Below are positions 1-15,091 of a stretch of 15,091 nucleotides of DNA, piece after piece (positions within the stretch are counted from its first letter, which is position 1; every line of letters begins with the position of its first letter). The position numbers were made by a program, and so were the translations under genes. Source of the stretch: Pilaira anomala. Lineage: Eukaryota; Mucoromycota; Mucoromycetes; Mucorales; Mucoraceae. The stretch is taken from contig JAIXMQ010000186.1 of assembly GCA_025716855.1 (NCBI GenBank), positions 1-15,091 on the forward strand, in the 5' to 3' direction. The notes beneath the pieces are model-generated. The model saw nothing but the letters and a program-made list of their open reading frames with translations, was not told the DNA's origin and made no database searches.

Positions 1-640
1 CCGCTGTATACACCGCTAGCACCTGTGACATAACCGCAATCCAGCAAGGTACCGAATTGAGACATATTAGAGGACATGTCACGGGTCAATTGTTCAGTGC
101 CCCCAAAAAGACGGCCATACTGATCAGGAAGGCCAGTAAGAAAAATCTTTACAATTTCAGCCGTAGGTGATAAAGAGGGGTAAATTCTGAAAGTGTCGGT
201 AAAAGAATTTAAAGAGAACGAAGAATTTTTTAAAAAATAATGATTTTTATTTGGTGAGACTACAACTTCGGCATAGCATCTATTATAATCTCGACGAAAA
301 TGGTCTCTGACTGACCACCGCAGAATTCTTTAAATGCGGAAAGAAAGGTTTTCTTTTTTTCGTCAATGACATTCGTAATGTCAATTAGCAAAGAATTGTC
401 GACGGTGCCCTTAATAAAGGGTCGAACGAGATCTGAGGAAAAGTGATCAAGTGGTGGAGTTGTAGAGTCAGCGCTGGGGGTGAGCTTTCCAGTTTCACCG
501 TTGGGCAGTTGAGTAGGCGTGCGACTGATACTAGAGGTTTTTTTTGCCCCTCCAGAGACAGTTTGAGCCCATGATTTCTTACTATGATGAGTATGCGGAC
601 CTTGAATGGTACCTTTGTGATTATTAGCGGAAGAAGCCAT
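1..640 (-). pseudogene. gag/ORF1-like retroelement protein, N-terminal part, frameshifted, cut by left edge
   Basis: Read on the minus strand, an ATG at 638-640 opens a 126-codon frame that stops with TAG at 260-262. The first ~75 residues are Ser/Thr/His/Lys-rich and contain the motif SWAQTVSGG. Residues 75-120 form an ordered alpha/beta-looking segment (DNSLLIDITNV, then AFKEFCGGQSETIFVEI). A different frame, open from about position 300 to the left edge, continues in the same style with VVVSPNKNHYF, then KIFLTGLP and GTLLDCGYVTG. Those last motifs resemble the RRM-like RNA-binding region of fungal non-LTR ORF1/gag-like proteins. One missing or extra base near 260-270 would explain the break. 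No zinc knuckle is visible, but that part would lie beyond the edge. The family assignment is by motif style only. The gene runs opposite to all other large elements here and probably belongs to another retroelement lying to the left. Confidence 0.5.
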
Positions 641-1313
641 GCACAGATAATAAACTCTCCGACCCCCTTACATTTTATTTTAATTTATTTATTAACTGGT
701 CACAAACAATCATCGTACTTTTTGTTTATTTTTTTTTCTTCTCCTTTATTTGCTCTTACAACCACCTCTTTAATTTACATATTAAGCTTTATTTCTACAC
801 CCTTTGCCTGAAACTTGTATAAAACGCAACTTATATATATATATATATATATATTTAACTGTCTTTTTCTAACTCATCTAAAAAAAAAAGGCTATTAGAT
901 TTCCTTTCTCTTATCAATGATTATAGGTATTTATTATTCCTTTTTATTTTACGTACACACAACACTTTCATAGATAATGGAGATTTAGCAGAATCATATT
1001 ATTATATTTTCAACTTTTCAGTCGGCTTACATATATTATAGCTCATTGTTTATCCCCTATATAATTATATATCTTTTCTATTTATCTACTTTAAAATAAA
1101 ATAATGCTTGTTATTTTAAAACATATATATTTACTTTTTTTTTATTATTGCATGTGAATCATTCATTTGTGCTCAAGCTATCTGAAATATATATAGTGTG
1201 TTTCTTTTATTATAGCAGAGCTCTCTTTTTTATTAAAAAAAACAGACAGTATTAGCTTCACGTGTTTAATAAAAAAAAATATGATGTCTTGACCGAAAAA
1301 AAAAAATGTTCAC
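641..1313. other. AT-rich non-coding stretch
   Basis: No supported gene on either strand. The sequence is very AT-rich with many short T and A runs. A TATAAAA at 818-824 on the plus strand has no start codon of a supported gene near it. The microsatellite at 832-854 lies inside. Upstream regulatory signals of the minus-strand gene (start at 640) or of the gypsy element (from 1510) could be here, but none can be recognised with confidence. Confidence 0.6.
832..854. repeat. (TA)n microsatellite
   Basis: Uninterrupted alternation of T and A for 23 bases in non-coding DNA. Simple dinucleotide repeat. Confidence 0.9.
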
Positions 1314-1464
1314 GGCATTTTGGCGTGAAGGGTATCTTAATGCCTAAGTTTGGCGTGAAGGGTATTTTAATGCCAAAATCTGGGCGTGATGGCAAACTTT
1401 TTAATGCCAGAAAAAAAAAAGGCATATTGGCCTTGCCTATTTTTAGTTGAACTGGCATTTTGGC
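1314..1464. repeat. Short tandem array of ~30-bp GGCGTGA...AATGCC units
   Basis: Two neighbouring 30-bp units (1321-1350 and 1351-1380) both start TGGCGTGAAGGGTAT and carry TTAATGCC at offset 16-24. They differ at four positions. A third, shorter and more diverged unit (TGGGCGTGATGGCAAAC...TTAATGCC) fills 1381-1408. The 11-mer GGCATTTTGGC occurs at 1314-1324 and again at 1454-1464, bracketing the array. GGCATT and AATGCC are inverted copies, so each unit can pair its ends. A-tracts lie on both sides. The array ends about 50 bp before the first ATG of the RT reading frame. Its role is unknown: it could be a leader or LTR-edge repeat of the gypsy element, or an unrelated minisatellite. Confidence 0.8.
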
Positions 1465-1509
1465 CTGACCCATTCGCCTAGGTGGGTTGAAGGCTATGAC
1501 TTGAATTTA

Positions 1510-3003
1510 ATGGCGTCTATTCTTTCAACAATTGAAAACTCTAGAGAAGAAGATATTAAATTACATGTTACTGATTTGACTGAAGACCGTATAAATAAAA
1601 TTCAAATGGGAGAAGTACAAGAGGATATCAAACAAGAATTTTTACAACTTATGAAAAGATATAAAGACGTATTTGATTGGGTTAACGATACGCTAGGATG
1701 TACTCCTGTTATTAAACATCGAATCATCACTGAAGATGTACCACCTATACGAAGTCGACCTTATCGAATGTGTCCAGCTGAAATAGAAAGTTTAAAAGCC
1801 GAGCTAGACAAACTAAGTGAATTAGGTGTCATACGACCCTCAAATAGTCCGTGGAGTTCACCTATCATTTTAATAAAGAAAAAGAACAACACATATAGAC
1901 TTGTTATTGATTATCGCAAAATTAAGGCTATCACCAAGAAAGACGCTTATGCTTTACCTAGAATTGAAACGTTATTGGACACTCTGGGAAATGATTCAAT
2001 CTTTTTTGCGTTGGATATGAGAAGTGGATTTTATCAAGTTGCCCTTTCTGAGGACTCTATAGAAAAAAGTGCCTTCGCTACTGCTCAATTTGGACAATGG
2101 GAGTATACAAGAATGCCTATGGGATTATGTAATTCTGTTGGAACGTTTCAGATAATGGTTGATTTGGTCTTTAAGGATTTGATAAATAAATCTTTAGTCG
2201 CTTATATTGATGATCTGAACTGCTTTTCAAAAACTTATGAAGAATATATTGTTGATCTGGAGAAACTATTTGTGTGTGTTAGAACTGCTGACCTCAAATT
2301 AAATATATCTATGTGCTTCTTTTTCAAGGAAAAACTCAACTTCTTAGGATATATCATTACTAAGGAAGGTCTCGAAACTGATCCCGTGAAAATTGAAAAA
2401 GTACAAAACTTTCCGCTACCAACTTCAGTAACTCAAATCAAAAGTTTTATTGGTATTGCGTCCTATTATAGAAGATTTATAAGAAACTTTGCCGCGATTG
2501 CAAGACCGTTACATAATTTAACAAAAAAGGGACAAAACACATGGAATCAAGGAGCAATAGAAGCCTTCAACAGTTTGAAAGATGCCTTAACAAAAACTCC
2601 GGTATTAGTAAGACCTGATTTTGACAAGCCTTTTATTCTGGTGACAGATGCTAGTAGAGTTGGTATTGGTGCTATCTTAACACAACTTGATGAAGAAGGA
2701 CACGAACATCCCATACAATATATAAGCAGAGGTTTACGAGGTCCTGAAATAAATTACGGTGTGTCAAAACTAGAAGGACTCGCTATTATTTGGTCTGTAA
2801 AGATATTTCGACCATATTTACTGGGAAAGAAATTTACCATTATTACCGATCATGCTGCTATAAACGGATTACTAAAGTCTCAAGAACCAACGGGAATCCT
2901 TGCAAGATGGATTGCAACACTAAATGAATATGAATTTGAAGTGAAATACCGACCGGGAAGAGTCAATGAAAGCGCGGACTTCTTATCTCGTTTGGGGAAC
3001 TAA
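1510..3003 (+). CDS. Ty3/gypsy reverse transcriptase-RNase H
   Basis: Copies element RNA into DNA in cytoplasmic virus-like particles, with RNase H removing the RNA strand. The frame is open from 1447 (after TAG at 1444-1446), but the first ATG is at 1510, giving 497 residues. RT motifs in order: GVIRPSNSPWSSPIILIKKK, YRLVIDYRKI, FALDMRSGFYQV (first catalytic Asp), RMPMGLCNS, and YIDD at 2203-2214 (catalytic Asp pair). Then NFLGYIIT and SFIGIASYYRRFIRNF lead into the connection. RNase H has TDASRVGIGAIL, LEGLAIIW, ITDHAAI and ADFLSR, so all four acidic positions appear present. There is no internal stop or frameshift across ~500 codons. Unusually, YIDD is followed by LNCFSKT, where most family members have a hydrophobic run such as IIVFS. 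Integrase is not fused downstream but starts 288 bp later in the same frame. Gag and protease are missing upstream. Confidence 0.93.
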   Translation: MASILSTIENSREEDIKLHVTDLTEDRINKIQMGEVQEDIKQEFLQLMKRYKDVFDWVNDTLGCTPVIKHRIITEDVPPIRSRPYRMCPAEIESLKAELDKLSELGVIRPSNSPWSSPIILIKKKNNTYRLVIDYRKIKAITKKDAYALPRIETLLDTLGNDSIFFALDMRSGFYQVALSEDSIEKSAFATAQFGQWEYTRMPMGLCNSVGTFQIMVDLVFKDLINKSLVAYIDDLNCFSKTYEEYIVDLEKLFVCVRTADLKLNISMCFFFKEKLNFLGYIITKEGLETDPVKIEKVQNFPLPTSVTQIKSFIGIASYYRRFIRNFAAIARPLHNLTKKGQNTWNQGAIEAFNSLKDALTKTPVLVRPDFDKPFILVTDASRVGIGAILTQLDEEGHEHPIQYISRGLRGPEINYGVSKLEGLAIIWSVKIFRPYLLGKKFTIITDHAAINGLLKSQEPTGILARWIATLNEYEFEVKYRPGRVNESADFLSRLGN

Positions 3004-3291
3004 AATAATACGGAAACAAGGTCCAACTACACACTGATCGACTGGAAAAGCTGATGACTAAAAAATACCAAAAACAATACAAAAAAAAAAAAGAAAACAC
3101 TTCCGAAAAACAATATAAAACAACAATTTCAAAATCACTATTCAAAAAAAAAAAAAAAATACACATACAAATTATCGTACATTTAAAATCACCTCACATT
3201 TGAAATCACCATACATCTAATCAATAAACTTCATCATCTTAATTAATCAATCGTATTACAACTAAATAAACTCAAAAACTATACTACAACA
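3004..3291. other. A-rich spacer between RT-RNase H and integrase frames
   Basis: These 288 bp hold several stops in the frame shared by the two flanking ORFs: TAA at 3001-3003, a TGA-TGA pair near 3052, and TAAs further on. There are two long A-tracts (3081-3092 and 3144-3159). The last 30 bases before ATG 3292 are A/C/T-rich without G and look like a yeast-type leader. No convincing intron borders were seen. It may be a true intercistronic leader or inserted/decayed DNA. Confidence 0.6.
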
Positions 3292-4170
3292 ATGGATATT
3301 ACAATAATCAAATTACTCAAAGCTTACTTATCGAATCTGGAAATATCTGATTTCGCCAACACTGAACAAAAACAATTTTTGAATAAACAAGCCAAGCATT
3401 ATACACTGCTGAACAGGAAACTCTATCGGTGCAACTTGGAAACTTACCAGCATAGAATAGTATTAAATCAATCGGAAGTAATAGAAGTACTATATATGAC
3501 TCATCAACATCCCCTCGGAGGACATTTGGCTTTCAACAACACTTTAAATGAAATTGCGACAAAATATTATTGGCCAAACATGGTGAAGGATGTGACCAAA
3601 TATGTGAGAGATTGCCCTCGGTGCCAACTACATGGTAGGAAAACTCTAAACGAAAGGTTACACCCCGTGGCTGTGTTACATGTCCCGTTTGAGCAAATTG
3701 CTATAGATGTCAAACACGTGTCTACAAGCAGAGGAGGATACCGATATGTGATTGCAGCAATTGACTATTTGACTAAATACGTAGAAGCTAGAGCAGTAAG
3801 ATTTCAAACAGCGATTGAAATAGCTTTATTTTTGTATGAAGAAATTATCTGTAGACATAGTTGTCCTCGAACTATAATTACTGATAACGGCAAGCCTATG
3901 GTGAGCGAACTGGTGTATCAAGTTTGTCTGCAGTTTGGATTGCGCCACAATACAATTAGTCCCTATAACAGTCAAGCAAATGGCTTAATAGAAAGGTTCA
4001 ATAGAACATTTGATCAAATTATGCAAAAAGAACACAAGAAGAAAAGATGGATTGGCATCTTTATCTACCTTCAATGTTATTCTCTTACCGAAGTATGCAG
4101 CAAGCTACTACCAAAGAAACCCCTTTTTACCTACTTTATGGTTATCAACCCCGAACCCCCTTTGATGTGA
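3292..4170 (+). pseudogene. Ty3/gypsy integrase, zinc-finger and catalytic core, frameshifted at its 3' end
   Basis: Inserts element cDNA into the genome. ATG at 3292. The HHCC zinc finger is complete: His73-x4-His78-x29-Cys108-x2-Cys111 (HPLGGH ... CPRC). The catalytic core has Asp139 (AIDVKHV), Asp198 (IITDNG) and Glu234 (NGLIERFNRT). The last two are separated by exactly 35 residues, the D,D-35-E spacing of LTR-element and retroviral integrases. After about residue 250 (KEHKKK, near position 4040) the frame stops making sense. The expected continuation, MDWHLYLPSMLFSYR, is in another frame starting at 4047. A one-base change in the run aagaagaaaaga would explain it. The stretch from ~4047 to the stop at 4168-4170 is therefore out-of-frame noise. 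Whether the break is real decay or a homopolymer sequencing error cannot be told from one sequence. Confidence 0.88.
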
Positions 4171-5150
4171 AGAAAATGCAAGTTCCAACTGAGCTCACTT
4201 TTGATCAAATATTAGAACAAAGAACTCATAAGCAAATCAACACACTACAACTAATCAGGAAGAGCGCTATAAAAAGGATCGAATCATCTCAGAAGTCTCA
4301 AAAGGAAGCTATTGACAAGAAACTACTACAAACAAAGAAGAGTCTGAAACCTGCATTTAAAATTGGAGACATTGTAGAAAAATACCGCGATTACAAAGGA
4401 ACCTCTTGGGCGGGAAAATTAGAAGACCTGTGGGATGGATTATTTGTAATAACCGAATATCTGAAAAAAGGCAGCTATGTAATACAAGGAACAAAAAAGG
4501 ATGGTACTACAGATATTAAAATAGTACATGGAAATCGACTAAGAATATACAAATTACCGGACGTCGGGTGGAAACTAGAAGAAAAATATAAAAAGACTCA
4601 GGTTTCTAACTTGGAAGAAGACCCCCCTCATCTCGAAACTTATAACATGAACTGGGCTGATCGCGAAACTAACGAAGAGGCTGCTAATAAAATTAATGCA
4701 AGACTAGGTCCTATTGGTGAACGAAGTAATAATATGGAGAGACGAGAACCTGCTGAAGTACCTCCTCTTGAACTCTCTGAATTCGACAAGCTTTACAAAG
4801 GAAAAGTACATGAGAATACGGTGACTTGTCTAGATGATCTGGGTGAAATAAGTGAAGGATCTCTCATCTATAATAAAGGCCCGGCGTATCGCGACGAGTA
4901 CCCCTTCAATTTATCGGACCTAGATAACCTAGGATTGTGCGGTGATGAACCCATAATGAATAATGTGACAGATTATCCAAAAGTATCGGTATTAGAACAA
5001 ATGAAGAATGATGCACGAGAATACGAAGCAAGACTGGAGCAAATCTTATTGAACAAGACTAGAAATGAAGTGATACTTAAGCGTATGGCTACCAACGTAG
5101 TTCGAGTATGTCATGAGCAAATGGAACATCCACGAACACAGGAACAATAA
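4047..5150 (+). pseudogene. Ty3/gypsy integrase C-terminal part with GPY/F-like module and long acidic tail
   Basis: This continues the integrase after the frameshift near 4040. Residues 1-40 give the classic end of the core (LPSMLFSYRSMQQATTKETP, then FYLLYGYQPRTPFD). Residues ~100-158 match the GPY/F-type module that follows gypsy integrase cores: FKIGDIVEKY, KLEDLWDGLFVI in place of W.GPY.V, SYVIQGT and VHGNRLRIYK. From residue ~165 to 367 the protein is charged and rich in Glu, Asp and Asn, with no recognised domain and no chromodomain signature. ATG 4047 is probably not a real start, only the first Met after the frame break. The frame ends at TAA 5148-5150, but 45 more codons stay open in the same frame after it. 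This part likely helps bind DNA or steer target choice; that is known of the family, not shown here. Confidence 0.82.
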
Positions 5151-5288
5151 CAACAATATTTACATTTGAGAGGATTCCACATCAAGAGTCTCGTTGCTGG
5201 TCCAAAAAAAGCAGGACGTACCCTAACTTTGAAGAACTATATCAAGAAAATCGACAGCTATGATGGCCCTTGTTTTGACCCTACCTAA
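5151..5288 (+). other. In-frame coding-like tail after the integrase stop
   Basis: Directly after TAA 5148-5150 the same frame stays open for 45 codons to TAA 5286-5288. The stretch reads as protein: basic and ordered, with GFHIKSLVAGPKKAGRTLTL followed by KNYIKKIDSYDGPCFD. The codon context is caa-taa-caa-caa, so a single C-to-T change in a run of Gln codons would create the stop. It may be a nonsense mutation, readthrough, or chance. Confidence 0.4.
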
Positions 5289-5794
5289 GTCCTTTTTCAA
5301 AAAAAAAAAAAAGGTTTAGAGTCTAAACTTCCCTAGCAACCACCATATGTTACACGAAAATCTACCTACTTTTTGGATCTACTTACTTTGCAAAACACAC
5401 AACATTAAATCATTACTTATATTAAATCTACATAGATTGTAAATCACTAAATATTTAAAACTAAAAATAATATAAATACTCATAATATTTTATCATAATA
5501 AAAATTCAATTTACTTTTGTTTCAATTTAAAAAAACCTTTTATCCTAAACTTGATAATTTCCTTAATTTTATTTTGTACTTAAATTCCCTTGAATACTAA
5601 AACTTATTCATTGTAAATTTATCTTAAAACTACTCTTTTCTTTATTTTATCAAGTCGTTCTACTTGTCAACAGGAACTGGTGCTCACTTTTTTATTTACT
5701 TTTGCCTTATTGCTTTATTTTATTCTTTACCACAACATCTTTTGATTAACAAAGGTAATAGGTGAAATTCAGTGTAACATGTTGTGCAGCTTAT
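5289..5794. other. AT-rich spacer, no gene seen
   Basis: About 500 bp of AT-rich DNA with an A13 tract starting at about 5300 and a near-perfect palindrome at 5314-5328 (GTTTAGA-G-TCTAAAC). No ORF with recognisable content. It could be the 3' untranslated part of the gypsy element before its LTR. Confidence 0.6.
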
Positions 5795-6128
5795 GTGACG
5801 GTGTTTCAAAACACGGGGATCTTACGCGCCAGCTATAACAGTATCCAAGTTATAAGGCCGTAAGATCACAGGACCCTTTTAGGATGTTGTACGGGTTGGT
5901 GGCACCGAAAGGTCGGGCGCCAGCCTTATAAATTATTAGAATTACGAATTTAAATAAAATCATCTCTTTTTATTCTATTTTTTTTACTACGTCGAATTTC
6001 TCTCTTCACGTTGGTAGTTGGAGATTATAGTCAAGAAAAGCCTCGGATATTAAGTTTTATTAAGCTACTAGGTAATTTAGATCCCGGCACAACAAACAGC
6101 ACCTTTCCTCTAGTCGTGTAAAAAAACA
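5795..6128 (+). repeat. LTR-like remnant with hairpin and TATA box (uncertain)
   Basis: This segment is distinct from the AT-rich DNA around it. It begins TGTGACGG, contains a 50-nt imperfect hairpin (5818-5867) and an ACC-GAAA-GGT mini-stem (5904-5913), then a TATA box TATAAAT at 5927-5933 and AATAAA at 5953-5958. A moderately GC-rich upstream block followed by TATA and a T-rich tail is the layout of an LTR (U3, then R-U5). It lies downstream of the gypsy pol in the same orientation, as a 3' LTR would. Against this, no second copy is in the window, no clear polypurine tract precedes it, and the ends are not clean inverted TG...CA. A structured non-coding RNA gene is the main alternative. The boundaries are approximate. 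Confidence 0.35.
5818..5867. other. Imperfect inverted repeat able to form a long hairpin
   Basis: GATCTTACG (5818-5826) pairs perfectly with CGTAAGATC (5859-5867). GCC (5828-5830) pairs with GGC (5856-5858), and TATAAC (5834-5839) with GTTATA (5849-5854). Together this gives 18 base pairs around the 9-nt loop AGTATCCAA, with one small bulge and one internal loop. A smaller inverted repeat, GTGTTT-CA-AAACAC, lies just before it (5801-5814). Confidence 0.8.
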
Positions 6129-6146
6129 TTAAATAAAAGATAAAAT

Positions 6147-6152
6147 AAAAAA
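6147..6152 (-). terminator. Pol III terminator of tRNA-Phe
   Basis: On the minus strand a run of six T begins three bases after the tRNA discriminator base, the usual RNA polymerase III stop signal. Confidence 0.85.
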
Positions 6153-6155
6153 GAT

Positions 6156-6180
6156 TGCGGCTAAAGTGGATCGAACACCT

Positions 6181-6212
<32 letters not shown>

Positions 6213-6228
6213 GCTGAGCTATACCCGC
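6156..6228 (-). tRNA. tRNA-Phe (anticodon GAA)
   Basis: Read on the minus strand it is 73 nt including the discriminator A and has no intron. The D stem is GCTC/GAGC, the anticodon stem TCAGA/TCTGA with loop CTGAAGA (anticodon GAA), and the T arm AGGTG-TTCGATC-CACTT with one G-T wobble. Box A (TAGCTCAGCTGG) and box B (GTTCGATCC) are intact, and a T6 terminator follows. The acceptor stem GCGGGTA/TAGCCGC has one mismatch, G5-G68, where a C at position 5 would pair. The 5' end of the gene faces the start of the LINE that follows, and its first 14-15 nt recur at 11267-11280. The gene looks functional apart from the mismatch. Confidence 0.95.
6214..6228. repeat. Left copy of putative LINE target-site duplication (inside tRNA-Phe 5' end)
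   Basis: CTGAGCTATACCCGC equals tRNA positions 15 to 1 read in reverse complement. The matching right copy, with one C missing, is at 11267-11280, directly after the 3' end of LINE copy 1. Confidence 0.65.
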
Positions 6229-6235
6229 ACTTACA

Positions 6236-6454
6236 CATGCTCTTTCGCTTTCTTAACACTTTTATAAAAACTTTTTGAAACTCCGCATTTTTTTATTTTA
6301 GAAAGTATCCATCCATCTATAAAAAGTACATAGTTAGATACATCCGTCAACCAAGAACAACATATTTTTTTTTGGAAGATAGATCACCTTTATTTCTGAA
6401 GATATCCGAAGTTGAATATAACTACATCTTTTGGATTTTATTTGGAATTAGAAA
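6236..6454 (+). promoter_or_regulatory. 5' leader of LINE copy 1 with TATA-like box
   Basis: Untranslated leader between the tRNA gene and ORF1, containing TATAAAAA at 6318-6325, ~130 bp before the ORF1 ATG. LINEs must carry their promoter inside the transcribed unit, so this region is the likely promoter. It is nearly identical to the leader of copy 2 (11284-11504). Between 6289 and 6410 the only difference seen is one T in a T-run. No ribozyme fold was recognised. Confidence 0.6.
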
Positions 6455-7615
6455 ATGGACACCTCCAACTTTGAAAAAATTCTCCAAGGTGTTATGACCG
6501 CCCTGGAAAATTTAAACTCAAAATTTGATGCTACGTCAGCACGTCAAGATCACCTGATTCAGGAACTCAGAGCGGAGAACCAACGTGTCAGCGCAGAACT
6601 GACCAATATGAAAGCCCTTATCAAGTCGCTCCAAGCCATTGTTACTGCAACTTCTGATGCCCCTACCGCCATGAATATTGATGATATTCACACCGGTTCA
6701 AGTCAAGCTTCCTCCCTGGGCTCTAGTGCTAGTAAGTATGCTTCAAAAGATAAGGTAAATGTTACTCCCAGTCGCACAAACGCTGTTACCAAGACCACTG
6801 CTACCAAGACCACTGTTGGCTCGCCTGTTACTCCTACGGTTGTTTCAGTCGCTGAACCAAAGTGGACTCAAGTTGTCAAGCGTAAAGCTAAGGTACCTCT
6901 CTCTGAGCGCAAGACTCTTGCAACTGCACGTGCTTTCTCGTTTCCTCCTGAAGCTGATTCGCCTTCCGGTTATACGCATGTGTATATACCTCGTTCTCGA
7001 AACCTTGACCGTAAAAACGTCCGCCAACGCTTTAGTGTCCTTGGTATCTCTACTGCCTGTGTTTTAGACATTTCGTTCCCTGCTCGTTCGGTGGTTGGCA
7101 TCCTCATCCATAAGGAGTTCAAGACTGAGTTCTTGGCCACTCTAGATAGATGTAAGATTCCAGTCATCCCTGACTTTAATCCTCGTGACCAAAAACATGT
7201 GGTAGATCCCAAGTTTGTTGACCTGCCAGTGCCTCAAAGAGAAAGTCTCGCTGCTGCCTTACATCAAGACCGTTGTATCCGATCTCTGTACTTTGTCCGC
7301 GCCTATTTGGTTCCCAGTATTAGTAAGTACTTTCAAGAACAAGGCTGGCTCTCACCCGCAATTGCTACGAGTATCATTCAAGAACGTGTGCCCCGCCCTA
7401 CCAAGAAGCGTGCTACTATGTCATGGGATTCTACAGCTGAAGCTCTATTGAATGGTTTTACTACTGATGCATCTATGTACGGTCAAGACGACCTTGCTAT
7501 GGTTCAACCTATGCATATTGATACTTCACAACCCGAGGAATTTCATGAGAATGCGTATGGCTCTGACTCCGAGGATTCCACATTTGACGCGCCCGTTGGC
7601 AACCACTCCCAATGA
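6455..7615 (+). CDS. LINE copy 1 ORF1 protein (RNA-binding, gag-like)
   Basis: 386 residues, uninterrupted. The ATG at 6455 is chosen because copy 2 has an ATG at the same place and similarity begins there. Residues ~5-66 form a heptad-like coiled coil (LQGVMTALENLNSKF, IQELRAENQRVSAEL, MKALIKSLQAIV), as in trimeric LINE ORF1 proteins. Residues ~70-140 are a Ser/Thr/Ala linker. After PKWTQVVKRK (~residue 137), residues ~165-250 form a compact alpha/beta segment (GYTHVYIPRSRNLDRKNVRQ, then VLDISFPARSVVGILIH) that could be an RRM-like or comparable RNA-binding fold. The C-terminus is acidic (EEFHENAYGSDSEDS). There is no CCHC zinc knuckle. The role inferred from the family is to coat element RNA and bring it with ORF2 to the target. 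The stop overlaps the ORF2 start in ATGA. Confidence 0.85.
   Translation: MDTSNFEKILQGVMTALENLNSKFDATSARQDHLIQELRAENQRVSAELTNMKALIKSLQAIVTATSDAPTAMNIDDIHTGSSQASSLGSSASKYASKDKVNVTPSRTNAVTKTTATKTTVGSPVTPTVVSVAEPKWTQVVKRKAKVPLSERKTLATARAFSFPPEADSPSGYTHVYIPRSRNLDRKNVRQRFSVLGISTACVLDISFPARSVVGILIHKEFKTEFLATLDRCKIPVIPDFNPRDQKHVVDPKFVDLPVPQRESLAAALHQDRCIRSLYFVRAYLVPSISKYFQEQGWLSPAIATSIIQERVPRPTKKRATMSWDSTAEALLNGFTTDASMYGQDDLAMVQPMHIDTSQPEEFHENAYGSDSEDSTFDAPVGNHSQ
7612..7615 (+). promoter_or_regulatory. ATGA stop-start overlap joining ORF1 and ORF2
   Basis: The ORF1 stop TGA (7613-7615) overlaps the ORF2 start ATG (7612-7614). The same four-base overlap is found in copy 2 at 12630-12633. Such overlaps are known in some LINEs and RNA viruses to allow termination-reinitiation of translation. 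That mechanism is inferred here. Confidence 0.75.
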
Positions 7616-10600
7616 GTGTGTTGTCTCCGTGCAATAATATAACCATTGGTCTTTGGAACGCTAATGGTTTACAGTCAACTACTGTTGCCGATGTCCTCTC
7701 CCACTGTCGCTCCTTCTCTATACTCTTCATTACCGAATCCTGGATGATTGCTCCCTATACCCTCCCTACTACTTGGCCCGAATTTCATACCTATGGGAAG
7801 CCCGTTACTCGTAACACTCCCACTGGTAAAAAAGTTCGTGGTTCAAATGGTATTGTAGCTCTCATCAATCCTGATTGTCCCGTCCCCGTCAATCTCCTTC
7901 CTCCTCCTAATCCGTATACCCTCTGTCTCCAGTTTGGCCAACTGCGTATCTCCTGCTTCTACATTCCGCCCTCCCTCTCCACGAGTCAAGCCGTGGCTAT
8001 CCTTGACTCAGTTCCTCTCCAACAAGATACCATCCTTTGTGGTGATTTTAATGCTCGTTTGCATCACGTTACCGGTGATCATGCTTCAAATCCTCGTGGT
8101 ACTCAGTTCAAGACCTGGTATCAAGACCGTGAATTGACTCTTTTGAATGCCTCACTTGCCTACAAGAAGTTCACTTATCGCAAGATGATGGATGGAGTTG
8201 AACATAAAAGTATAATTGACTATTTTCTTACTAATAATGTTAATATACTACAGAATGCAGCAATACAGGTATATGATGAACTTACCATGGGTTCCGATCA
8301 CTGTCTTCTGTCTCTCTCTTTTGGGTTAGAAATAGATCAAGATATCGCTCCTGCTCCTGAGGCTATTCCTCCTAGAAGAACTTGGCAACTGTCAAAACTA
8401 AAGGAACCAGATGTAGCTCAGCTATACGCCTCTAAGTTTCATACTAATACTCACAGCCTACATGAGACACTAGAAAGGGAAGTTGATGCGACCCTGAATT
8501 CCGTTACAAGCAAACCTGATTTCGACTACTTGGAAGGCCTTCTTTGTGATGCTGTTTACAGCTCCCTAGATTCAAGTCTTGGTACACGACCTCGTAAGCC
8601 GTCTCACTGGCACAAATACTGGACTCCTAGTCTTCAAGCTTCTGCTGGTGTACGTGATCATTGGTACAAGAAGTGGCGGCGAGCCTCTGGAATTCACAAG
8701 CTAGACTACTGGGTTAAGTATCTTCAAGCGTCTAAAAAGTTCAAGTCTGAAGTCTTAACTGCAAAACGCCTGTCGTGGCGAGACTACTGCCGGTCCCTTG
8801 AAACTGACTTCTCCAAAGCTACAGCCCAAATAAAGTATTCAAAGCGTAAGCACGAAAGCTCGGGTACTTTCTCCCATCCAGATGGTCCTGTCACTGCTGC
8901 TAAGGTTATGTGTGATCATTTACAAGAAGTCTATGATGGTCGTCATATCAACACATCATTGTCCAACAACGTTGATACTTCTCTTCTTCTACCAATCACT
9001 ACTGCTCCTGACTCTCATGCTTCTGGTATTTTCGATTCTTCTCGAATCGAAAACTACATCATGTGCTTGCCCCAGCGTAAGGCTCCCGGACCTGATCACC
9101 TCCGTGCCGAAATGCTTCGACCTATAAAGTCGCGCTTAGCTTCCTTGCTCTCGTTGTTTTTTCAGCTGTCTTGGTCCTGGTCAACCGTTCCTCGTTCCTG
9201 GCGTCAAGCTCAAGTATTCCCAATACTCAAGAAAGGTGATGCTACTCTTCCAAGTAACTATAGGCCAATTTCTTTGACTTCTGCTTTACGAAAACTTTTA
9301 GAAATGGTACTTCAAACTGCTGTTACAAAATACTCACCAAAACTTGATATTGCCCAAGGTGGTTTCCGTACCAGGCGTAGTGCTCTCGACCAGGCTTTGT
9401 GTTTACACGATCTTATCCAAGATTATCATCATCAACATCGGGGTCATTACCCAGTAGTGGCGTTTTTGGATATCAAGCAGGCGTATGATACTGTCTCCCG
9501 AGATATTATCTGGAAGGCTCTTCGACTCTCTGGTACTCCTCTGCCTCTCCTTGCCCTACTTCGTCACTTGTTTGATGATGTGTTTGTCTCGGTTCTAATT
9601 GGTAATTGTTCATCACCATCGTTCTCTCCTGTTACTGGTGTTCTGCAAGGTTCTGTTCTGAGTCCTTTATTGTATTCTATATACATTAATTCTCTGCCTC
9701 ACCTGCTACGTTCTTTTGCTTCTGATAAGACTACTAGAGTCACTATTCCAGCTACTAGTTCTTCTGCTTCTGAAACTGTCGCCATCAACTCGCTGCTATT
9801 TGCCGATGATGTTGCTATATTTGGTACTAGACGTGAAGTCCATCAGATGCTAGCCGCTGTTGCTCAACACTCCACGGATCTTGGTTATAGATGGAACCCA
9901 CTTAAATGTGCCGTCATAAATCATCCCCCTGGTCGAACTCCTGCTGGTGTACCTTTGGATCCTCTGAAGTTGTATAATGTAACTCTTCCACAAGTCGATG
10001 AATTTGTATATCTAGGTGTACCTTTTATCAAGTCTGGTATCTCCGGTAATGCTATGGCAAAGCTACGAGCCCCTGGTACAATGGCTGCTATGGCTACTCT
10101 ACACAAGATGGGTGCTCACCGCTCTGGATTCTCTCTGCTACTCAGTTCAAAGTTGTACAAGACCTTTATCCGTCCCAAGTTTGAATATGGCCTAGCCATT
10201 CTTCATTTGCTTAAAAAAGATCTGGCTCTCTTCGAAAAGATACAAGACCGGTGTCTTCGGCTGATGGTTGGGGGTCACCCCACTTCTTCCACTCAAGTTC
10301 TCAAAATCATGATAAATCTGCCTTCGGTTTCTTGGCGTGCAGATGTTCTGGTAACAAATTCTGTCTCCGTGTCCACCACCTGCCTAAGGATTGTCTCTTG
10401 GTTCGCCTCCAAGAAAACATGTCTTCAAGGTCTTTGCTACAATCCTCTCTTAAGAAGAATAACTTGTACACCAGTCTCCCTACCTATGCCACAGAATCCC
10501 GTGATGGGCTGTTCTCGTATTTGGCTGAGGCTCGTCAAACCAGGCTCACCACCTTCCTTGGCAGTACCTCCCAGGTGTTAGCTAGAGCATGTCGCCCGGA

Positions 10601-11048
10601 AATTGGTCTCGACCCCGTTCTGTACCTCCCGGCCACCCGTACCGATAGAAGTAGGCTCATCAGATGGCGTATGGGCTGGTTACCTGGTAACCCTCACGAA
10701 TGCTTGTGTACTCAAGACCACACCTCCCGTCGTCATTTCAACAAATATAACTGTCCAGCAATTCCAACAACTCTCTGGGATGCTCTGCCCCATGCTCCTC
10801 CTGACGTCCATCCAATTGATAATGCAATCTCCCTGCTGCCTCTTGAAATCAAGGACTACAAACCCTTCTGGCCTGCTCTCCTTACTCTACTCTGGTACGT
10901 TGAAATACTAGTGAATCCCTCTGGCTATCTTCCAGAAGACCCTGATCCTGGTGCGTTATGGCGTGATCACAACAACAACCGTACCAAACTTCCTATACTA
11001 CTAATGATCAATCTCAAGATCTTCAAGTTGCGAACTCAAGACTATTAA
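7612..11048 (+). CDS. LINE copy 1 ORF2: APE endonuclease-reverse transcriptase, one frameshift
   Basis: Nicks target DNA and primes reverse transcription of element RNA on it. The endonuclease (residues 1-235) has WNANG with Asn16, ITES with Glu42, GDFNAR with Asp145/Asn147, IDYFLT with Asp203 and SDH with Asp229/His230, so the EEP catalytic set is complete. The RT has KAPGPDHLRAEML, LKKGD, SNYRPISL, AQGGFR, AFLDIKQAYD (Asp620), GVLQGSVLSPLLYSIYINSL and FADD at 9799-9810 (Asp732/Asp733), then YLGVPF. The first frame runs to 10581, but sense ends near 10355. The frame open from 10251 to 11048 then takes over with KFCLRVHHLPKDCL and continues to the true C-terminus. That part holds WRMGWLPG and a Cys-x1-Cys-x8-His-x5-Cys finger starting at 10701. 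The break lies in gtaacaaatt and fits loss of one A. No RNase H domain is visible. Confidence 0.92.
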
Positions 11049-11266
11049 ACTCTTAAAATCTAGCTCTTGGGTCTCCACTTATTGTTCAAAATTTTGCTCT
11101 CATTATAATTCAAAACTATTCCATCAACCTTTTTTTATATTAGGTACCTCTTTTATTAGATAGATATATTTTTTACATCCCCTCCTCATGTTCTCCTATA
11201 GAATGCATTAATGGTAAAATTAACCGAATGCAGTATTCTTCTTATTAATAAAACAAAATCTTTAAA
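11049..11266 (+). other. 3' UTR of LINE copy 1
   Basis: AT-rich, with a direct repeat GAATGCA at 11201-11207 and 11226-11232, a small possible stem TTAAT/ATTAA between them (11208-11223), and a poly(A) signal AATAAA at 11247-11252. It ends ~14 bp later at ATCTTTAAA, with no long poly(A) tail, just before tRNA-derived sequence. Confidence 0.7.
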
Positions 11267-11280
11267 CTGAGCTATACCGC
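11267..11280 (-). repeat. tRNA-Phe 5' fragment; right copy of putative LINE target-site duplication
   Basis: CTGAGCTATACCGC matches 6214-6228 (the first 15 nt of tRNA-Phe, opposite strand) with one C missing. It sits between the 3' end of LINE copy 1 and the 5' leader of copy 2. It is too short to be a tRNA. It is best read as a duplicated target site left when copy 1 inserted between tRNA-Phe and copy 2. Confidence 0.7.
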
Positions 11281-11283
11281 GCG

Positions 11284-11504
11284 CATGCTCTTTCGCTTTC
11301 TTAACACTTCTATAAATTTTTTTTAAACTCCGCATTTTTTTATTTTAGAAAGTATCCATCCATCTATAAAAAGTACATAGTTAGATACATCCGTCAACCA
11401 AGAACAACATATTTTTTTTTTGGAAGATAGATCACCTTTATTTCTGAAGATATCCGAATTTGAATACAACTACATCTTTTGGATTATTTTTTTTGAAGTC
11501 GAAA
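11284..11504 (+). promoter_or_regulatory. 5' leader of LINE copy 2 with TATA-like box
   Basis: Almost the same sequence as 6236-6454, including TATAAAAA at 11365-11372. Differences cluster in T/A homopolymers near both ends. It is joined to the tRNA-Phe fragment through only GCG (11281-11283), where copy 1 has seven bases. Confidence 0.6.
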
Positions 11505-12633
11505 ATGGAACCCTCAAATAATGAAAAAATTCTCCTTGACCTTATGGCCGCTATGGAAAATTTAAACTCAAAATTTGATGCTACGTCAGCCCAGTTCAAT
11601 CATGTGATCCAGCAATTTCGAACTGAGACCGAACGACTTGGCGCAGAAATGGCCCGTATGAAATCGCTCATCCAGGCACTTCAGGCCACTGTTTATGCAT
11701 CTTCTGACGCTCCTGCCGCCATGAATATTGATAATATTCCTACCGCCTCAGCTCCTACTCCTGCCTTAGGTTCTAGTGCAAGTAAGTATGCTACCAAAGA
11801 CAAGGTAAAGAAGGTTACTTCCAGTCGCAATACTCCTGTTACCAAGACCGCTGTTGGCTCGCCTGCTACTACTACTGTAGTTCCAGTCGCTGAACCAAAG
11901 TGGACTCAAGTTGTTAAGCGTAAGCCTAAGGCACCCATCTCTGAACGTAAACGTTCTGCTACTGCTCGTGCCTTTACTGCTCCTGCCACTCCTGGTACTC
12001 CTTCTGGCTATGATTACGTGTACTTACACAGGTCACGTAATATTAATCGTAAGGATGTGCGCCACAAGTTTTCACTTTTGGGTGTTGAGACTGCACGTGT
12101 ACTTGATATCTCTTTCCCTGCTAGATCAGTAATTGGTGTTCTACTTCACCAAGAATATAAGCCCGTCTTTTTACAGATCCTTACCGATTGTAAAATCGCA
12201 TCTATTGAAGCATTTGATCCTCTTGACCCAATTCATGTTGCCGATCCCAAGTATAGTGATATGCCAGTACCCCAAGTGCTCGTTTAGCTTCTGCTTTACA
12301 TCAAGACCGATGCTATAATACACTAAACTTTGTACGTGAATATCTAGTACCTAGTGTTGCTAAATTTTTTGTAGAAAAACATTGGATCTCAGATGCTCTT
12401 GCTACTAGTGTTATTCAACATCGTTTGCCTCGTACTCAAAAGAAATCAAGACTCGACAGCTATCGTGGTTTTGCTACAGAAGCTTTTCTCACTGCTGCTG
12501 GTGATAATGACATGGAAATGGGTGAAGAATTTCATGAGAATGCCTATGACAGCGACAATAGTAATGACTCAGAACGGATAAAGAAACTGAAGTTTCTACT
12601 GAACAACTGCCTCATATTCACCAATCTCAATGA
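11505..12633 (+). pseudogene. LINE copy 2 ORF1 protein, two frameshifts
   Basis: The ATG is at 11505, aligned with the copy 1 start; an in-frame TTG 45 nt upstream is ignored. The N-terminal coiled coil (LMAAMENLNSKFDATSAQFN, then MARMKSLIQALQATV), Ser/Thr/Ala linker, PKWTQVVKRK and the ordered domain (VRHKFSLLGVETARVLDISF) all align with copy 1. After DMPVPQ (~12275) the frame breaks and reaches a stop at 12287. The expected continuation (ALHQDRC..., WISDALATSVIQ, EEFHENAYDSD) is in a second frame to about 12575. A further shift near 12575 leads to a frame that ends at TGA 12631-12633 with IHQSQ, matching the end of copy 1 (NHSQ). That TGA overlaps the ORF2 ATG exactly as in copy 1. Confidence 0.8.
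12630..12633 (+). promoter_or_regulatory. ATGA stop-start overlap in LINE copy 2
   Basis: ATG 12630-12632 opens ORF2 and TGA 12631-12633 closes ORF1 in its ancestral frame. The flanking sequence (tctcaATGAttg against cccaATGAgtg) has diverged while the overlap has stayed. Confidence 0.7.
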
Positions 12634-15091
12634 TTGAGGAATATACATACAATAACATTACTATAGGACTTTGGAATGCTAATGGTTTACACCAGACTAG
12701 TATTTCAGATGTCTTATCCCATTGCCACTCATTTACCATTTTATTTATTACAGAAACTAAACTTTTATCTCCTACTCGCCTCTTTAATCTCAACAACTGG
12801 ACCCAATTTCATCAATATGGTAAACCTGTCTATGTTAACCCAAACTATAGCAGGGGATCCCAAGGTATTGTTGCTTTGGTTAATCCAGATTGTCCCGTCG
12901 AAGTCACTCACTTACTCTCACCTAATCCGTACACCCTCTCACTCCAATTTGGCACATTGCGTATCTCCTGTCTCTATCTTCCGCCTCCTTACCTTCTACT
13001 CAAGTCTTTGCCGCACTTGATACTATACCCCTACAACGAGATTCAATTCTTTGTGGTGATTTTAATGCAAGATTCAGCCAGTTACTTGGTGATGAAGTTT
13101 GTAATCCTCGTGGTACTCTCTTACAATCATGGTGTGAAGATCGCGATCTCTCTATTTTAAATGCTACTTTAGCTTATGGTGAAGCCACCTTTACTCGAAT
13201 GATGAATAATCGAAAACAGCAAAGTATAATTGATTTGTTTATTACTAATAATTTAAGTGTACTACAGAACCCTTCAATGTTCGTCAATCAAGACTTAACC
13301 CTTGGTTCTGACCATTGTATCCTGTCACTTACTTTCGACCTAAATATTGATAATACTCCTCAAGTTATATCTGATGCTGTACCTCCTCGTCGTGTCTGGA
13401 ATCTATCACGATTGCAAGAACAAAAAACTAAAGAATTATATGTAACTACTTTTTCTAATAACACAACAAATGTAATTACCACTTTAGATAGTACCTTAGA
13501 AGATAGTAAGAATCGGCATACACGTTCCTCCAAGCCTGATTTTGATGCTTTGAATGACTCTCTTTGCTCTTCAATCTATTCTGCATTGGATACTGCTATT
13601 GGAAAAAAAAAACAAAGGCCTAAAGAATGGAACAAGTACTGGACTCCTGCTTTACAAACTGCTGCTGATATCCGAAATACTTGCTACCGTCGCTGGCGTA
13701 ATTCAAGAGGTATAGACAAGATAACTAACTGGCTTGCATATGTCAAAGCAAAAAAACAATTTCGGTATGATGTTGTTGCTGCTAAACGACAGTCTTGGCG
13801 AGATTACTGTAACTCTTTAGATCAAGATATCAATAAGGCTGTGTCAATGATAAAAAACCAGAAGCGTAATCGTGAACGTACAGGTACATTTACCCATCCT
13901 GAAGGTCCTAATGCTGCTGCTACTGCAATGGTTACCCATCTTGAACAGGTATACAATGGTAATTTACTTCCATCTCCTCGTCCTTCTTTTTTTTCTTTTA
14001 GCGAAACTGAACTACCTCATGCTATTTCTCATGACATCCCGACGGTACATTTGATATTGAAGAAATAGAAGAGCTTATTAAAACACTTCCTCGTCGCAAA
14101 GCTCCGGTGTTGATCATTTACGTGCTGAAATGCTAGTCCCGATTAAAAAAACAGCTTGCTGTTATTTTATCAAAGTTCTTTGAATTGTGTTGGTGTTGGT
14201 CTTCGACTCCATTGCAATGGCGACATGCACAAGTATTTCCAATTTTCAAGAAAGGTGATCCCACTCAAGCTTCCAATTATCGTCCGATCTCATTAACGTC
14301 TATTTTACGAAAGTTATTTGAAATGGTTATTAAATCGACTGTTGAAAAATACTCCCCTCGTATTGACGTAGCCCAGGGTGGATTTAAAAGCCAGCACTCA
14401 GCTCTTGATCAAGCAGTTTGTCTACATGATTTAATTCAAGATTACTATAAGTCTCACCACGAACGCTATCCGGTCGTAGCTTTTCTCGATATTGCTACTG
14501 CTTATGATTCTGTAGACCGTACAATTATTTGGAAAGCTATGATGATCATAATGCACCAGCACCTTTACTAGGTTTATTAAAAAGTTTATTTGATAATGTT
14601 TCAATTTCTGTTTTAATAGGTAATGTTACATCTACTTCCTTTGCTCCGGTAACTGGTGTCTTACAAGGCTCTGTCTTAAGTCCAATGTTGTATTCAATAT
14701 ACATTAATTCGTTACCTACTCTCCTACGGGTCCATGCTTCTCCTACCACCACTCCGGGTTAATGTTCCTCTAACATTAATAATATTCTGAACTACTTCCT
14801 ATTAATTCATTACTCTTCGCAGATGATGTTGCAATTTTAGGAACGTGTGATGAAGTTGAGTCCATGCTACAACTGCTGCTGAACACGCTATGACTCTTGG
14901 CTACCGATGGAAACCTGAAAAATGCGCTGTTATTAATCATCCTCAGGCCCGATTTAATTCAGTTAACATACGTGCACCTCTCAGCCTATATGGTGTTGCT
15001 ATTCCCAAGTTGATTCCTTTACCTATCTTGGTGTACCTTTAACAAAAAAGGTATTGATAACCATGCCTTGGCTACTCAACGTTCACAAGGT
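12630..15091 (+). pseudogene. LINE copy 2 ORF2: APE endonuclease-reverse transcriptase, many frameshifts, partial
   Basis: Starts at ATG 12630 with NNITIGLWNANGL and ITETK. A shift near 12985 moves into a frame carrying the GDFNAR motif near 13050, then SIIDLFITNN and SDHCILSL (13199-14068 region). Further shifts occur near 14040, in ccggtg near 14105, in an A-run near 14147, near 14540, around 14745-14800 (with a stop at 14760-14762), near 14870 and near 15005. RT pieces survive in order: RRKAP, HLRAEML, FKKGD, SNYRPISL, AQGGF, AFLDIATAYD, GVLQGSVLSPMLYSIYINSL, FADD at 14817-14828, and YLGVPL near the right edge. Catalytic residues are kept, and the damage is almost all indels. Third codon positions are more A/T-rich than in copy 1. 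The element continues beyond 15091. Confidence 0.85.

Follow-up and report, generated by a model that had tools for sequence, protein, structure and literature searches.

The window analysed here is a 15,091-nt stretch of Pilaira anomala DNA (assembly GCA_025716855.1, contig JAIXMQ010000186.1, positions 1–15,091), in which an intact tRNA-Phe(GAA) gene stands next to two head-to-tail copies of a long interspersed nuclear element (LINE). The tRNA gene lies on the minus strand (6156–6228, 5' end at 6228) and is separated from copy 1 by a 7-nt spacer (6229–6235), made of extra nucleotides at the 5' junction. Copy 1 runs on the plus strand and consists of (i) a 5' leader (6236–6454), (ii) a first open reading frame, ORF1 (6455–7615), encoding 386 amino acids with no Pfam match, (iii) ORF2 (7612–10581), encoding an endonuclease of the apurinic/apyrimidinic type (APE) and a reverse transcriptase, and (iv) a 3' end (11049–11266) that terminates AATAAAACAAAATCTTTAAA, with no poly(A) tail in the DNA. 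The ORF1 stop overlaps the ORF2 start as ATGA; the ORF2 frame is lost in its 3' part, and another open frame covers 10251–11048. Copy 2, also on the plus strand, has a leader at 11284–11503, followed by ORF1 and ORF2 sequence that is broken by stops and frame changes and cut by the contig end (11504–15091).

The two copies are separated by a short piece of tRNA. The first 15 nt of the tRNA-Phe gene, which hold the 5' half of the A box and form the left copy of a target-site duplication (6214–6228, minus strand), read CTGAGCTATACCCGC on the plus strand. The final letters of copy 1 (...AAATCTTTAAA, at 11266) are followed immediately by the right copy: a tRNA-Phe 5' stub on the minus strand, CTGAGCTATACCGC (11267–11280), which is one C short. 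Copy 2 begins 3 nt later. The initial annotation had reported the complete tRNA gene adjoining copy 1, the recurrence of its first 14–15 nt between the copies, and leaders starting 3–7 bp from the tRNA end; these observations are confirmed.

The window's tRNA-Phe gene is identical, over 73 of 73 nt, to all eight other tRNA-Phe genes compared in the genome, showing that the insertions left it intact. Copy 2 carries more stops and frame changes than copy 1, as expected if copy 2 is the older, displaced element; this supports the proposal that copy 2 landed first. The two leaders match at 207 of 222 aligned columns and the aligned coding blocks are 70–76% alike, a difference that could reflect leader exchange, gene conversion or strong constraint.

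By the ORF2 sequence, the elements classify as APE-type non-long terminal repeat (non-LTR) retrotransposons: ORF2 matches PF00078, PF14529 and PF03372, with no integrase match. The likeness to L1 is given by the best solved-structure match alone (human L1 ORF2p in PDB, E 1.1e-19). No RNase H match was obtained in the window's ORF2, the C-terminal part of which is out of frame, and RNase H is absent from the Pfam domains listed for homologues P0001–P0073. The named ORF2 protein homologues in that set all come from Mucorales (Rhizopus, Mucor, Parasitella, Phycomyces, Cokeromyces and Dichotomocladium), while a scan of genome and viral contig collections with ORF2 gave no relative beyond this genome.

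Could the stub be a coincidence? The window was scanned, without gaps and on both strands, for 15-mers from 11 tRNA 5' ends at up to three mismatches. Both Phe sites were recovered, the stub scoring three mismatches because the scan was gapless; the additional matches, each with three mismatches, were an Ala match on tRNA-Phe itself and a stray Lys match at 12115. By this measure the stub, in the window alone, is not beyond chance. Chance is ruled out by the exact position of the stub between two elements, together with the genome-wide data described below.

LINE insertions at tRNA genes across the genome

The survey covered the 34.25-Mb assembly, in which the window is contig C97. A search with the leader returned at least 18 DNA matches, of which 12 hold the leader 5' end and the other six are interior pieces. 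All 12 leader 5' ends (nine from the window's family and three from a sister family) lie next to a tRNA 5' end in a head-to-head arrangement. The neighbour is an intact tRNA gene in nine cases (Phe, Thr, Trp, Ile, two Lys and three Leu) and a tRNA stub in three, each of these last leaders coming after another LINE in an array. A search with the 3' end gave six matches, every one of them followed by a stub—Phe, Trp, two Thr and two Lys—and each stub is a 14–15 nt copy of a tRNA 5' end. The spacers between element and tRNA nt 1 are mostly 0–10 nt (22 nt on contig C143), and the LINE is oriented opposite to the tRNA gene at the loci examined. Among at least 61 tRNA genes listed, flanks were examined for 51, and six of these carry one of the LINEs (C143 and C183 included). 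These results demonstrate reproducible insertion at the tRNA genes of many loci; that is, a tRNA-gene-targeting retrotransposon.

By our own estimate, in which 500 tRNA genes are assumed, a 20-bp zone at each would occupy ~0.03% of the genome, so that nine intact tRNA loci for 12 leader ends are not a chance outcome. A small negative control is available from a 14-base leader pattern. Allowing one mismatch, the pattern proved too loose (424 matches vs 357 for the reversed control); among its 19 exact matches, the 11 with G or A at the free base are leaders, and the eight with T are not leaders and have a tRNA at none of their loci. Specificity rather than chance, as the initial annotation had argued from two uses of one site, is upheld by the genome-wide counts (12 of 12 and six of six), and not by the stub in the window taken alone.

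A pattern of this kind could in principle be produced without any targeting, if a few LINE–tRNA pairs had been spread by segmental duplication, and the leaders of the window's family are indeed 93–100% alike. The tRNA types, 3' flanks, stubs and native flanks nevertheless vary by locus. We reject this explanation, to which we give practically no credence, as contradicted by the variety of neighbouring tRNAs.

Comparison of the two ends of each element bears on what the stub is. In 13 of the 16 elements with both ends seen, the tRNA identity is the same at both: Phe (C97-1), Thr (C192 a and b), Trp (C158), Lys (C1, and C84 plus C141, two contigs whose join is inferred), Leu (C157-B and C35-B), His (C54), Ala (C193-2 and C193-3), Gly (C144) and Ala-like (C157-ii). 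Two of these agreements were predicted beforehand: the far-end His stub of C54 was found, exact over 15 nt, and the 5' end of C144 proved to be Gly as predicted, but in the form of an array stub rather than a gene. The duplicated copy therefore changes with the tRNA, as a target-site duplication does and a part of the element does not.

The alternative, that the stub is an element-borne, tRNA-like 3' end used for priming, is compatible with the window alone, and the border base of the Trp stub (C for T) may come from the element. Against it stand the agreement with the other-end tRNA in those 13 of 16 elements, the variation of the stub by locus (Thr, Trp, Lys, Leu, Ile, His, Gly, Ala, Tyr or Glu elsewhere) and the native-type flank beyond the stub in nine of 11 cases (see below). 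It too is rejected, since the stub follows the tRNA of the locus, and we regard it as very improbable.

The same type of junction recurs in four additional LINE families, at Gly, His, Ala, Tyr, Pro and Glu. Outside the window's family, the elements examined are part of the ORF2 relatives at 36–58% identity, and the family letters used here rest on leader and 3'-end likeness rather than on a tree. Both 3' ends examined in family B (Leu) carry a stub of their own Leu isoacceptor. Family C is found with His at both ends on C54, with Pro on C112 and with Lys-CTT on C143; family D has an Ile stub on C182 and a Tyr stub on C183; family E has Ala stubs on C90 and C193 and a Thr stub on C68; and family F has an intact Gly-GCC gene on C156 and Gly stubs at both ends on C144. 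Two elements on C157 end in Ala-like stubs, one base off Ala. The second of these is 5'-truncated, starting inside ORF2 directly at the stub, which indicates that tRNA adjacency is independent of the leader. Genes that exactly match the C193 Ala, Glu and Tyr stubs exist in the genome (Ala-AGC, Glu-CTC and Tyr-GTA); an Ala pattern that assumed a short D loop had no match, and without that assumption it returned the stubs and one gene.

On sequence grounds, then, at least six LINE families of this genome appear to target the A-box regions of tRNA genes, in four classes by A-box sequence. The specificity originally put forward was for tRNA-Phe; it is instead for the A-box region and extends over many tRNA genes, and the phenomenon is broader than first claimed. 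With these two corrections—A-box targets and several families—the original interpretation is supported, including regeneration of the tRNA by a duplication of ~15 bp: the stub varies with the tRNA, and tRNA-Phe is identical to its eight counterparts.

Two further features of the families were seen. Leaders of families A–E have a near-terminal motif like CTCTTTCRCTTT or CTTTCTTTCGCTT (L112, L029, L092, L101 and others). On C193, two Ala stubs enclose an element of 1.96 kb whose leader and 3' end resemble those of family E (C193:324444–326399); it is an internally shortened copy that is perhaps non-autonomous.

Displaced tRNA flanks and discordant elements

Unoccupied tRNA genes in this genome have a recognizable upstream region. 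Where 90 bp or more of the upstream region was available, 42 of 47 such genes have CACGTGA or TCACGTG 52–88 bp away (median 57.5), and five have neither. The box lies mostly 52–62 bp upstream and is often doubled (e.g., L114–L129, L054–L083). The box probably serves the tRNA genes of this fungus as an upstream element; a narrow literature query on a CACGTGA box at tRNA genes returned no paper.

This box makes it possible to follow the flank that each insertion would have displaced. Enough upstream sequence for the box test was available at 11 of the 14 intact tRNA genes beside these LINEs, and no box occurs within 200 bp of any of these 11. Twelve LINE 3' junctions were selected on the expectation that native DNA lay beyond; that of the window runs into another LINE. 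At nine of the remaining 11 3' flanks, the CACGTGA box occurs 54–62 bp past the stub, indicating that the DNA there is in most cases the tRNA gene's own displaced flank. This test stands in for a comparison with empty sites.

Several points weigh against, or qualify, the proposed insertion mechanism. Firstly, since the leaders resemble one another, the absence of the box from occupied genes is to be expected and adds no independent evidence, and two of the 11 3' flanks, both with Ala stubs, have no box within 200 bp. Secondly, no stub follows the 3' end on C75, and the ~200 bp upstream of a leader-like start on C16 contain no tRNA. These two cases speak against an exceptionless rule: the expectations that 3' junctions carry the repeat and that copies do not lie at unrelated sites hold for all six matched 3' ends and all 12 leader 5' ends of the window's and sister families, and fail here. 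Thirdly, the Trp stub and the Trp gene disagree at nt 15, with C in the stub and T in the gene. Fourthly, a part of the 53 ORF2 matches was traced as far as the element ends, and the findings on the other families refer to those copies. Finally, three of the 16 elements have unlike tRNAs at their ends: Pro and Asp-like on C112, where the Asp assignment is a guess; Lys-CTT, across the 22-nt spacer, and Glu on C143, with an odd 5' junction; and Met and Tyr on C183, where the leader start is missing and the 5' junction is odd. The Pro stub expected on C112 was not found, and searches on C183 and C143 for a stub of the tRNA at the 5' end were negative, the stubs there being from other tRNAs.

In the three mismatched elements the flanks were probably joined by rearrangement, either through recombination between similar LINE copies situated at separate tRNA genes or through insertion accompanied by a deletion between two such genes. 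Both C112 junctions look canonical and the leaders of its family (family C) are 99% identical between loci; recombination between like copies would explain this element. On the other side, the 5' junctions on C143 and C183 are, as noted, odd.

Other mobile elements were also seen at these loci. CACTA-like DNA transposons with three types of ends (CACTGC..AAGTG, CACTAG..TAGTG and CACTGG..CAGTG) lie within LINE leaders. Measured from nt 1 of the tRNA or stub, they are at 57 bp in L012/L007 (C192), 57 bp in L013/L006 (C158), 56 bp in L015/L008 (C84/C141) and 57 bp in L141 (C54); right ends on C78 and C136 imply 55 and 48 bp, and that on C183 ~23 bp by the L112 register. A further CACTA-like end on C54 (L093) was not placed. 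These transposons may independently target the region ~57 bp upstream of tRNA genes. In the window, a Ty3/gypsy-type element (reverse transcriptase, RNase H and integrase) occupies 1447–5150, beyond the 3' end of tRNA-Phe. Part of its coding sequence (4264–4388) has 74–78% matches at several other loci, all of which had been picked for a tRNA or LINE and hence provide no control.

A-box sequence and the proposed insertion mechanism

The junctions described above share one geometry: the 5' ends of the elements meet tRNA nt 1 head to head, a copy of nt 1–14/15 comes directly after the 3' ends, and beyond the stub, where no further LINE follows, lies mostly native tRNA upstream flank. We consider it highly probable that L1-like APE LINE families integrate into tRNA genes by target-primed reverse transcription, with a nick in the A box and a duplication that restores the tRNA. 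The first nick, made by the ORF2 endonuclease, would fall in the A box on the coding strand of the tRNA gene, between nt 14 and nt 16, and the freed 3'-OH would serve as primer for reverse transcription of the LINE RNA, beginning at the 3' end of the RNA. A second cut would fall on the other strand, at or just outside nt 1. Filling of the 14–15 nt stagger on both sides would leave the tRNA with its 5' end and A box, and a stub on the far side. The rebuilt gene would be open to new hits, giving rise to tandem arrays in which the newest copy lies beside the tRNA. The C/T difference in the Trp stub implies either a nick at 14|15 by an element that ends in C or a mutated stub; the data are compatible with 14|15 and with 15|16 as the exact nick position.

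How is the site recognized? One possibility is tethering only: TFIIIB and TFIIIC would bring the complex, which cuts where the DNA is left open, the endonuclease reading no sequence, as with TRE5-A or Ty3. Many tRNA types are hit, all with an RNA polymerase III (Pol III) promoter, and extracts of two reports on TRE5-A describe a requirement for box B and in vitro binding of its ORF1 protein to TFIIIB subunits (PMC5911963, PMC5006619). Pointing the other way, the 3' junction in the stubs read is at nt 14/15, within the transcribed A box, whereas the TRE5 window is 40–54 bp outside the gene. Furthermore, A-box nt 11–15 differ by family, with Leu at three of three loci for one family and Gly at two of two for another, albeit in small numbers.

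The family differences were quantified with a shuffle test. Nucleotides 11–15 of the tRNA read CTCAR in families A, D and E, CCGAG in B, TTAAG in F, and NNTAG at four of the five ends of C. Mean within-family identity at these positions is 0.867, vs a shuffled-label mean of 0.668, and was reached by two of 20,000 shuffles; the families and rows were set after seeing the data. Each array contributed one row per family, except that both ends were entered for C112 and C143, which gave 22 rows in total; for C183 the Tyr end was entered and the Met end left out, as were the upstream element on C59 and the Ala-like elements on C157. That the families class by nt 11–15 points to reading of the A-box sequence. 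The shuffle result favours sequence reading over tethering alone, which seems to us rather unlikely, and is compatible with a joint mechanism, in which TFIIIC or TFIIIB may take part in the reading of the A-box sequence.

We lean slightly towards a still broader picture, in which the elements would represent a LINE radiation whose endonucleases read the Pol III A box, with families specialized on the A boxes of different tRNA sets. The gene would be cut and restored in one act, each hit swapping the native upstream region, with its CACGTGA box, for a LINE leader. The tRNA genes would thereby act as renewable landing pads, stacking LINEs and, mostly 55–57 bp upstream, CACTA-like DNA transposons.

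Comparison with known tRNA-targeting elements

Because one genome harbours several such families that differ in A-box class, one can ask which APE residues set the target, and whether that target is read as DNA sequence or via TFIIIC. With the CACGTGA box displaced, every occupied locus is a natural test of the upstream needs of a tRNA gene. The strategy is reminiscent of that of LINEs specific for ribosomal DNA; here, the targets are spread over many separate tRNA loci.

Among described systems, the closest are NLTR-A and TRE5 of dictyostelids. NLTR-A, from Dictyostelium purpureum, is a non-LTR element found 2–6 bp upstream of the mature tRNA, with an RNase H after the reverse transcriptase, according to the available part of PMC5006619. 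The 5' junctions reported here, mostly 0–10 nt from nt 1, overlap that range. The Pilaira elements differ from NLTR-A in that their 3' junction is inside the gene at nt 14/15 and no RNase H match was obtained; the host of NLTR-A is, moreover, amoebozoan rather than fungal. The same part of that paper contains no 'target site duplication' and describes neither an A-box cut nor a tRNA stub. TRE5-A and the other TRE5 elements of Dictyostelium discoideum insert 40–54 bp upstream of many tRNA genes, in opposite orientation; TRE5-A is of L1 type, with ORF1, an ORF2 holding APE and reverse transcriptase, untranslated region modules and an oligo(A) tail (extracts of PMC5911963). The Pilaira elements share with TRE5 the APE/reverse transcriptase ORF2, the L1 type and the orientation opposite to the tRNA gene. 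In contrast to TRE5, they insert mostly at 0–10 nt (22 nt on C143) and, unlike TRE5-A, have no oligo(A) tail: the 3' ends read finish in ...AAATCTTTAAA or similar, with the stub directly after. As excerpted, that account of TRE5 describes insertion outside the gene and no tRNA stub.

In fungi, LINEs have been described at telomeres, subtelomeres or poly(A) sites (PMC7175516, in part). Grem-LINE1 of Mucor is L1-like and located in pericentric regions, and 'tRNA' does not occur in the portion of text available (PMC7377519); the likeness to the present elements, as L1-like LINEs of Mucoromycotina, is one of description only, drawn from that portion. Other classes of elements also reach tRNA genes. 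Ty3, Tj1 and DGLT-A are Ty3-gypsy LTR elements that insert just upstream of the region where the tRNA starts (PMC5911963, in part), differing in their integrase mechanism and in staying upstream of the gene, and Dada elements, which insert into tRNA and small nuclear RNA genes according to partial sources, are DNA transposons rather than LINEs.

The tRNA-targeting LINEs in the table of PMC5911963, as far as that source was available, are all from social amoebae and all insert beside the gene. A literature search with Repbase and subscription journals outside its scope, and partial texts within it, yielded no fungal LINE at tRNA genes and no LINE that cuts the A box. Targeting of the tRNA side is known from social amoebae, and the cut-and-regenerate geometry is not in the literature so searched. 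Set beside elements that insert next to tRNA genes, an A-box cut mended by duplication would be a different answer to the problem of harmless insertion.

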